A program made the translations under genes and the position numbers. Shown one piece after another: positions 46,087 through 49,200 of a stretch of 64,000 nucleotides of DNA. The notes beneath the pieces were generated by a model, which was not told the origin of the DNA, searched no databases, and saw nothing but the letters and a program-made list of their open reading frames with translations. Each line of letters starts with the position of its first letter. Within the stretch, counting starts at the first letter, position 1. Source of the DNA: Bolinopsis microptera (lineage: Eukaryota; Ctenophora; Tentaculata; Lobata; Bolinopsidae); contig NC_087072.1 of assembly GCF_026151205.1 (NCBI RefSeq), positions 15,352,169 through 15,416,168 on the forward strand. The letters run 5' to 3'.

Positions 46087-46213
46087 ATGGGTTGTTTCTG
46101 GGGCCCGAGTTCTGATGAAGATCGTGAACAAAACAAGAGAAACTCCAAAATTAATCAAGAAATAAAGAAGTCAAAGCAAACCTTCAAATCAACTCACAGA
46201 CTTTTGCTTTTAG
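46087..46213 (+). CDS. Gs-alpha N-terminal exon 1a
   Basis: It encodes [18 protein letters not shown] through [10 protein letters not shown] plus the first base of glycine (42 codons plus 1 base). The MGC start is the canonical Gs-alpha form, with a palmitoylatable cysteine 3. The donor is TTTTAG|GTTTGT. A possible acceptor CTTTCCTAG ends at 46001, 85 bases before the ATG. This is the longest of the four N-termini. Confidence 0.9.
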
Positions 46214-49200
46214 GTTTGTCAAATTTGGTTAGAATCGATCGTAATCTCTTTAAATGTATGCATCAATGAATTACATACACTTGCACTCTCGATCTATGTC
46301 ATATTCAACACAAATCTTCATGTTGCCTATAATATTGCTCAGTACTTTCTGTAGATTATTGTCTACTACTGTTAGTGACTTTTGAAAAAGGTTAACAGTA
46401 AACTATTGTCAAGCTATAATGGCACCTTATGGTCTCAATGTTTTATTCACTATTCACAATTTATTGTGATTTAGGAAATTACTCGATTTAATCGTGCTAT
46501 TGAATTGTTAAATTGATTATTGTATCAAGCATTTGAGGTATCAAGGGGCAGGAGGACTTGAAGATACAACAAATTTGTCTTGGAGTCCTTCCATCTGAAA
46601 ACAAAGAAACTTTTCAGATACTCAAGTTGATAATAGGTTCATATAGACCGCCTGCCCCTTAAAGTTCAAATTTATAAGAAATAGTAAAGAATAGGCTCAA
46701 TTTTGACTGTATTTTGTTTATCAAAGTTTAACTAGTTTAAATTCGTTTAAACGTTATTACTGATCCTAGCTTTAAACTGAATGACAACTCAGCCATGAGT
46801 TGCCTTTTCTCGAATAGTGAAAGCGATAGAGAAAAGGCAAAAAATGAGAAGATAAACAAAAGGCTTGCTGACTACAAACCACTGTTTAAGTCCACCCATA
46901 GATTACTATTATTAGGTTTGTTCAGCCCAACAGTTTGAGAAATCTATTCTTTGTTCTTGACTCTCAGTAACATCTCGGTTTTAAAGAACTTTTTTGCTGC
47001 TTCTGATTTGAGAGGTTTTCTCTTTATATAGTCCCAGCCTCATTTGAATATCCTTACAATGTACAGCTTTTTAACTGCCAACAAACCGTAACTAGGTGCT
47101 AGAATATAATATATGAATAAATCGAATCATGATATCTATCGTTTTCTGACAAAATTGCTAAAAAATCCGAGGTTTTTAAAAGCACTTTTGACACATTCAT
47201 GAAAACTTGTGGCATTTTAAGCGGTTTCAAAAGAGGGTTTCTGAGGGACAGTCATTGGTTCTAATGCAATGGTTTCTGATGGTTTTCAGGGATAGTTCTT
47301 GACCCAATTAAGAAATATGGGTCAAAGAATTTATAATTTCAAAATTGGTCTCGAATCACTTTTGTCAGAAAACGGCAGATATGCAGCAATAATAGTATGT
47401 GTCAGGAAAGATATTTGAATATCTAAAACAAATCTACCTGACTATATATTTGATAATTTATGAGGTAAACCAGACTTTCTGAAAGACCGAATAAGTTATA
47501 TCCCTGCTCTTAATATATAGCTTAAAACTTAGTAATAGTTATTTTTTGTCATAATATTATCATTATCCATTGTCAAATATAACAACTTTCCATCATCTAG
47601 GCTTATATTTTATGACAGCTTCGTTATGAGCTGTTTCAAATCAGACACTGCCTCTGACTCAGCAGCCCTAAAAAATAAAGAGATAGATGAACGGCTTGCT
47701 TTGTTCAAGCCATTGTTTAAAGCAACCCATAGATTGCTCTTGCTAGGTTTGTTAGCCGCCATCCAGTGTGTTCAACCTATACCATTAATTCAGATTACGG
47801 TCTTACCGGTTGCTTCTGATTACAATATTTGAAGATTTATTTCATTTAATTCTTTTCACCAATTCAATTCTTTGAGTGAACTCTTTGATTTACATAGTTT
47901 TTGAACTTTCCATTATGTTTGACTGCTGCAATTTTTCATACTGCATTTTTAAAGCGTGTTGTTAAATGGTAAAACTTGAAGAATTCTTTGTAAATTACCA
48001 TTTTGATTGATAACACCCACAACAAGAATACTTTTCATCTACAACATACTCAGTATCACAACACGATTAAATTTCTCATATGTGCATCATTAAAACACTA
48101 AACTCTAGTTGGTAGTGCGTGCATGAACATATGGTTATCATGTGCTGCTTCTGTAAGAAACAAAGCGAGGCAGACATGCGCAATAGAGACATTGAAAAAC
48201 GGTTGAAAGAAGACAAAATGAACTTTAAGTCAACCCATAGGTTGCTTCTCTTAGGTTTGTTCTCAGCAGCTGCAATTCTTGTCATGCTCAGCAAAAACTC
48301 CCAGATTCCATCAGCTTGCTGTATATAGCTGTTCAAATTATACGTGATCAACCAAAAAAGCATCTGTTGCATCTTTCGGTGTCAATGACATAGCTTCCCC
48401 TGCACGACATGTAATTATGTTAAATCATGATTGTAACTTTTGCACATGTTTATGTGGCATTAAATCATAAAGCAAGTTAAAGCCTCAAGCTGTATGGGAT
48501 AGAATTGTGTCAAATTTTGACGTAACCAAAATATCTAGACTGCTCTCTCTTTCAGAAATTGATTATTAGAATCGAATATAATGTAGCAAAATCATTACAA
48601 CAGCGCTAAGACAAAATTACAAATGTTCTTTCTGTCAGACTGGACAGCAGAACTAAGTTCATCTGTATACATTTATATGTTCATAAAACAACGTGTTAAC
48701 CTAGTTTCATGAAACGAATATCGACACTCGTTCTTCATCATGTTTATCCCCGCACAGATTTCAAACCCAAATCTTCTCATGATTCAAGTGGTTTACTTGG
48801 TCTAATCGATAGTGTGGATATTATTCAATGTTTGATACAATGAATGTAATCATGATTTAAATACAAATTTGAAATTCGATGAGTTTGAAGCACTATAATA
48901 TTATAATAATTTTCAAAATAATCTGCCATATTTGGATAATATAATTATCCAGCCAATCTTTTCAGCTAAAATCTGCTATTAGAGCTTTTGCTCAATCACT
49001 AAATTGATGTTTCGTTTGACTTTTTAAAACATGATCTATTTCGCTGCCCTGCATAATCTATGATTTTCAGCTACAATGACTGTTTCAGCATTTGATAACG
49101 AAATTATTATTTTATATTTTATATTGGACATCAATGTACAAAATAATCTCGAATTTAATCAGAATCGTGGCTCGCAGAATTGCATGATGTTCTTGAAATT

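Follow-up and report, generated by a model that had tools for sequence, protein, structure and literature searches.

A Gs-alpha gene of the comb jelly Bolinopsis microptera with a tandem array of four probable alternative first coding exons

Receptors signal to cAMP through Gs. At the N-terminal end of the Gs alpha subunit, Gly2 can be N-palmitoylated, and the core of the helix that follows, with its I...(L/I) face, contacts G-beta and in known Gs packs on G-beta-gamma. Several described systems produce more than one N-terminal end from a single gene. Drosophila G-alpha-o has two alternative 5′ coding exons and thus two N-terminal ends from one gene, and UGT1A and the clustered protocadherins have arrays of homologous first exons that feed constant exons, each variable exon encoding a large substrate or recognition domain and having its own promoter. 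For the Gs class itself, the following has been described. Cys3 of Gs is palmitoylated, and XL-alpha-s, in which a first exon different from that of Gs-alpha is spliced to exon 2, associates more firmly with the membrane (PMC9294334). Vertebrate GNAS and GNAL each have an alternative upstream first exon, that of GNAS resembling the 3′ part of exon 1; the XL exon is apparently absent from non-vertebrate deuterostomes, which the authors could not confirm (PMC5896119). Exon duplications have also been described in amphioxus G-alpha genes, affecting exon 6 of Gi, exon 5 of Gq and the last two exons of Gs (PMC5896119). Mnemiopsis was examined by Lokits and co-workers as well, and the accessible part of their report mentions no multiple first exon for it (PMC5896119). 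Here, we describe a ctenophore Gs-alpha gene in which four short first coding exons stand in tandem before one common exon 2.

The window, that is, the whole stretch of DNA analysed, comprises 64,000 nucleotides of Bolinopsis microptera (C1:15,352,169-15,416,168; NC_087072.1), from a genome of 264,652,675 bases in 232 contigs. Its Gs-alpha gene has 12 exons, is complete and in phase and reaches 3.8 kb beyond the window. With each of the first exons the reading frame has 375-379 codons including the stop and a C-terminus RQYELL; a complete G-alpha domain with the P-loop, DVGGQ and NKQD motifs lies in one spliced frame, and the product matches the Pfam G-alpha family with an E-value of 9.1e-113. 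Among the PDB matches, chain A of 3sn6, a Gs-alpha (E 1.8e-158), is the second row by E-value, the first being 9uan_B, an engineered chain named miniGq that is matched in pieces. Judged by the nearest relatives of the predicted product and by its C-terminal receptor tail QYELL of Gs type, the locus is a Gs-alpha gene. A search of the genome with its database protein P0001 listed 28 matches: those to the exons of the gene itself have 68-100% identity, and the remaining 17 have 32-65%, the long ones among them 37-50%. Since the other G-alpha stretches match at just 32-65%, we take this gene to be the only Gs-type G-alpha detected in this genome, where a further one might still lie in unassembled sequence. 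In the intron that separates exons 2 and 3, a 40-base unit is repeated in tandem, with 20.7 copies (51031-51834). Upstream of the gene lie frames of the non-LTR retrotransposon type: 27888-30035 matches reverse transcriptase, 37585-40113 matches both reverse transcriptase and endonuclease, and a similar pair of frames, judged by eye, lies at 13120-17420. On the minus strand, an open frame of 411 aa at 9397-10632 matches a PAN domain, and tRNA and Rfam searches gave no match in the window.

The anatomy of the array, its phase, its donors and the constraint on it are direct observations. From ATG to donor, exons 1a, 1b, 1c and 1d measure 127, 121, 121 and 115 nt, all 1 mod 3. They have in common the pattern M-x-C-(F/L)...K-(S/A)-THRLLLL, followed by the first base of Gly and the donor TAG/GTTTGT, and all join in phase at the start of exon 2, immediately 5′ of which stands TTATTTCAG. 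The ends encoded are 38-42 residues long and an in-frame stop lies 6, 57, 90 and 27 nt 5′ of the ATGs of 1a, 1b, 1c and 1d, respectively; an extra-long N-terminal domain of the XL type is thus absent from all four. The initial annotation had placed these exons, their frames and peptides, had assigned the gene to Gs-alpha and had called the four exons interchangeable, all in one phase to a single P-loop exon. Translation confirms the first of these claims to the base, the Pfam match, the PDB comparison and the QYELL C-terminus agree with the second, and the common donor and phase bear out the third. A purine stands at -3 before the ATG in four of four first exons. In 1d, a second in-frame ATG at 48131, 9 nt upstream, would give MVIMCCFC and is the start used in P0001; at -3 this upstream ATG has C, and the ATG of MCC has the more favourable A. 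The donor GTTTGT scores 4.3, weaker than nearly all of the ten others of the same gene (4.2-9.3); the same donor follows the first exon of another G-alpha gene (MGNCCSDEG..., L012 position 3054). Both 1b and 1c are also preceded by a short frame of five codons, MTTQP (46781-46798) and MTASL (47612-47629), which begins at an ATG 14 nt before the main one and whose TGA overlaps the main start (ATGA). This layout is kept while the intervening bases have partly diverged, and the small frames could be either translational control or leftover homology.

Table. Exons and first-exon donors of the Gs-alpha gene, in window positions unless stated otherwise.
Feature	Position	Strand	Description	Basis
Exon 1a	46087..46213	+	MGCF..., KSTHRLLLL end; canonical Gs N-terminus (Gly2, Cys3)	translation; P0002-P0005 same type
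Exon 1b	46795..46915	+	MSCL..., KSTHRLLLL end (Ser2, Cys3)	translation, signature pattern, profile, constraint
Exon 1c	47626..47746	+	MSCF..., KATHRLLLL end (Ser2, Cys3); nearest to 1b	translation, signature pattern, profile, pairwise identity
Exon 1d	48140..48254	+	MCCF..., KSTHRLLLL end (Cys2, Cys3, Cys5)	translation; P0001
Donor GTTTGT	46214..46219 (1a), also 46916 (1b), 47747 (1c), 48255 (1d)	+	6/6 columns identical in four	
Exon 2	49256..49328	+	common P-loop exon	spliced reading frame
Exon 3	52286..52340	+		spliced reading frame
Exon 4	52700..52816	+		spliced reading frame
Exon 5	53277..53374	+		spliced reading frame
Exon 6	53881..53935	+		spliced reading frame
Exon 7	57062..57135	+		spliced reading frame
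Exon 8	63892..64000 in window; true end 64021, 21 nt past window	+	DVGGQR switch II	
Exons 9-12	66740-66789, 67184-67326, 67461-67528, 67665-67811 (extended coordinates)		end QYELL-stop	L009

This arrangement is like UGT1A and the protocadherins in that first exons which are homologous, lie in tandem on one strand and agree in donor and phase precede one set of constant exons, and unlike them in that the variable part is of only about 40 residues and carries the lipid anchor of a signalling switch. The Drosophila case concerns another G-alpha class and two ends, whereas the present one concerns Gs and four. With the XL exon of GNAS and its GNAL homologue the array would share the use of an alternative first coding exon in a Gs gene, joined to the same exon 2, a 3′ likeness to exon 1 (PMC5896119) and a change in palmitoylation and membrane hold (PMC9294334); the first exons of the array fit exon 2 in phase and show homology to the 3′ part of exon 1. 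However, XL is a single long upstream exon with a large extra domain and its own promoter, whereas here four short and nearly equal alpha-N exons lie within 2.2 kb. The two probably arose independently. Amphioxus likewise has duplicated exons in G-alpha genes that give mutually exclusive isoforms, but its copies are two only and are internal or C-terminal, altering effector, RGS or receptor faces (PMC5896119), whereas the exons here change the N-terminal lipid and beta-gamma end. The initial annotation was aware of no described case, which goes too far as a claim of novelty. Alternative first exons of Gs genes are known from GNAS and GNAL (PMC5896119), but a tandem array of near-equivalent alpha-N helices was not found in a thin search of the open-access literature, so that, as far as that search goes, the four-member array is new.

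The four ends have in common a core, N..I...(I/L)...K..FK.THRLLLL, and they differ at the end that carries the lipid anchor. There, residue 2 and the ~16 residues at the start are exchanged, with Gly2-Cys3 in 1a, Ser2-Cys3 in 1b and 1c, and Cys2-Cys3-Cys5 followed by Lys-Lys in 1d. Across an alignment of 30 animal Gs rows, Met1 and Cys3 are invariant; Gly2 is kept in 28 and is replaced by Cys in P0001 itself and by Ser in Lytechinus. A recognisable N-terminus was present in 194 of 240 fetched proteins, with an MGC start in 128, MGC slightly further in in 46 and no MGC in 20; three of these 20 start M-x-C, namely MSC in Lytechinus (P0029), MRC in Paramuricea (P0132) and MKC in P0164. Because P0132 and P0164, both Gs fragments, also lack Gly2, the absence of this residue is not in itself a sign of a new function. 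In an AlphaFold model of isoform 1d, a helix spans residues 11-33 of P0001, but the mean pLDDT is only 68.2 and no conclusion is drawn from it.

Averaged over the four exons, likeness spans the ATG to donor +6 and is at or near chance elsewhere. Mean pairwise identity is 0.74 over the first 12 coding bases, 0.71 over the last 24 and 1.0 over donor +1 to +6, versus 0.23-0.28 in the intron beyond +6, 0.32-0.38 over the 80 bases 5′ of the ATG and 0.32 over the 20 bases preceding it (chance 0.26), these being means of four exons, of which 1b and 1c as a pair keep some likeness just before the ATG. Over 84 nt, 1b-1d are 62-76% identical (1b versus 1c 76%, 1b versus 1d 62%), and over 38 nt, 1a is 68-74% identical to 1b-1d. 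All six pairs have pS of 0.75-1.11, near saturation, versus pN of 0.27-0.44, estimates that are only approximate for sequences this diverged and for 37-40 codons. In a simulation of neutral change of equal extent, the observed amino-acid identity together with an open frame was reached in 0-7 of 20,000 trials for each of the 12 ordered pairs. A pairwise test alone cannot tell whether both partners are constrained, but the donor, the start context and M-x-C are common to all four, which extends the constraint to each of them. The initial annotation had proposed testing selection on the exons and had regarded 1b and 1c as the youngest duplication. Since synonymous sites are near saturation while the helix core is kept, all four first exons look selectively maintained; 1b and 1c are indeed the closest pair, but their duplication is not recent, since ~0.79 of their synonymous sites differ and even this pair must be old.

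A degenerate pattern for the 10-residue signature has four matches in the 264,652,675 bases, all of them 1a-1d, and none in the reversed control. A four-exon profile applied to the window and ~10 kb downstream scores 1a-1d at 88-96 and the next best sites at 23 (plus strand) and 19 (minus strand), which rules out a fifth first exon in that range. Chance open frames are ruled out by the four matches versus none, by the profile scores and by the neutral simulation. Thirteen stretches surrounding other G-alpha matches were scanned for first exons, defined by a (K/R)-LLLL-like end directly before a G/GT donor: four stretches (L012, L014, L021, L023) have one each, and none was recognised by this test in the remaining nine. 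Multiple first exons are thus not a general habit of the G-alpha genes of this genome, with a single one at each of the four recognised loci. In the Gi-like L001 and L002, the P-loop lies inside one long open frame without a (K/R)-LLLL/donor boundary; L001, L002 and L010 (C1:17.33 Mb) represent two adjacent intronless Gi-like genes of 360 and 355 aa, with CGLF ends and starts ~2.9 kb apart.

At the level of products, P0001, assigned to this genome because its contig is as long as C1 (26,206,493 bases), represents isoform 1d preceded by MVI, while P0002, from a 21.5-Mb contig of another genome, and P0003-P0005, from relatives, have 1a-type ends. These five proteins form one clade with a support of 100/100 apart from 21 other Gs rows, in a tree of Gs rows only. 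P0003-P0005 come from contigs of 1.3-1.9 kb, which cannot hold an intron-bearing gene of ~20 kb, so they are cDNA-like; a cDNA is a simpler source than a retrocopy, though a retrocopy could look alike. Use of 1a, via the relatives, and of 1d, via this genome's protein, is thereby indirectly supported. The initial annotation had proposed that the locus makes at least four isoforms, but support from products is confined to 1a and 1d: a protein database clustered at 90% identity yielded no sequence carrying the 1b or 1c end. For 1b-like ends, a region search gave one candidate and no match, and a fragment search gave no ctenophore-like row, by name or identity, in the best 120 of 1475 proteins; copies of 1b-1d in other species were likewise not found in these protein searches. 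Because of the clustering at 90%, isoforms of one gene would fall together or be hidden, isoform 1b being 95% identical to P0001, which represents nine sequences.

Signals upstream of the exons were sought in several ways. A scan for shared upstream motifs (9-mers, one mismatch) gave 3, with a null mean of 1.15 and a maximum of 5 in 20 shuffles, and so stays inside the shuffled range. No acceptor common to 1a-1d was seen: the averaged similarity begins at the ATG, and the AG sites upstream are isolated and ambiguous. Those within the score range of the real acceptors of the gene lie 98 nt (1a, 6.9), 177 nt (1b, 9.1) and 336 nt (1c, 7.0) upstream; for 1d the best is 6.4 at 495 nt, inside exon 1c, and the next 5.9 at 185 nt. 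A leader-like 12-mer at 45500 is within chance (one match, with 2.13 expected at one mismatch). Elsewhere in the genome, TTAATTTGAGGTA has 32 matches versus 9 for its reversed control, five of them clustered on the plus strand at C13:12.81-12.89 Mb, and two of these five were fetched: L040 and L041, leader-like genes at C13:12829990-12849030. L040 ends in TTTTCAACACTACTATATAACAAATTAATTTGAG followed by GTAAG, and L041 is similar; their leader is nearly that reported as the Hormiphora spliced leader (PMC8527503). A long leader pattern copied from Hormiphora has no match in the genome. AAATTTGAGGTA has 237 matches versus 52 for its reversed control, but its matches were rejected as leader genes, 12 of the 16 fetched being one dispersed repeat and four unrelated, so that among the 18 places fetched only L040 and L041, both from TTAATTTGAGGTA, are leader-like. 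The dispersed repeat, with core CCCATTCCCAAAATTGAAATTTGAGGTAAAATGGG, accounts for 12 of the 18 places (L029-L039 and L042) and forms close tandem pairs in L032 and L037.

We consider it probable that this is one Gs gene whose four tandem first coding exons are alternatives to one another, each cis-spliced to a common exon 2. Repeated duplication of exon 1 would have produced the array; each first exon would start its own transcript and be joined by cis-splicing to the same exon 2, giving one GTPase core with four alpha-N ends. All ends would keep the core that packs on G-beta-gamma and the palmitoylatable Cys3 while residue 2 and the first ~16 residues are exchanged, the likely result being an unchanged coupling to receptor and effector while the attachment to the membrane, or the destination there, differs. 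The parts that we infer are that 1b and 1c are used, that the exons have separate promoters and that targeting is affected. That the exons belong to four separate genes, or to haplotypes mis-joined in assembly, is scarcely credible. Tandem near-copies are a common assembly artefact, but exons as diverged as these, with unrelated introns, led us to reject an artefact, and all of them lie in one 26.2-Mb contig with a single Gs core found and the signature in these four only. It is also improbable that only 1a, or perhaps 1a and 1d, is used and that 1b and 1c are decaying relics of exon duplication. Such decay would agree with product-level evidence being confined to 1a and 1d and with the failure of searches in the 90%-clustered protein database to find a transcript or foreign homologue of 1b or 1c; however, this pair, with a pS of 0.79, still has 18 of 26 core residues in common, a level that the neutral simulation reaches with an open frame in only 7 and 5 of 20,000 trials, and both exons retain M-x-C, the purine at -3 and the 6-base donor, with introns at chance identity behind them.

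How a first exon would be chosen is a related question. Separate starts are the simplest mechanism, with spliced-leader trans-splicing, which is common in ctenophores, as a live alternative or addition. A single promoter giving one pre-mRNA, from which trans-splicing of a leader or cis-splicing from a common untranslated exon selects the first exon, seems to us unlikely, though it has points in its favour: spliced leaders are on at least 56% of Hormiphora Iso-Seq reads (PMC8527503), L040 and L041 are present on C13, and AG sites in the score range of real acceptors precede the ATGs of 1a, 1b and 1c. These sites, however, vary in how far upstream they lie and in their sequence, and a message spliced at them would still contain ATGs ahead of the main start; such matches are not rare, since 8 of the 217 AG sites in 45.0-49.2 kb score 6 or more. 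In addition, working acceptors before 1b-1d would invite the joining of 1a to 1b, so that a further layer of control would have to be assumed.

One could speculate further that ctenophores diversified Gs by duplicating only the membrane-anchor exon, in contrast to vertebrates, in which duplication of the whole gene gave Gs and Golf, and that spliced-leader trans-splicing onto alternative first exons of one pre-mRNA selects the lipid anchor by cell type; this we regard as doubtful. Four natural ends on one core that differ at Gly2 and in the number of cysteines, if they are made, would provide a direct way to ask what the lipid anchor alone does to the location and signalling of Gs. They would also show that a comb jelly, from one of the two lineages proposed as sister to all other animals (PMC10232365), has widened its set of G proteins by duplicating an exon and not a gene.
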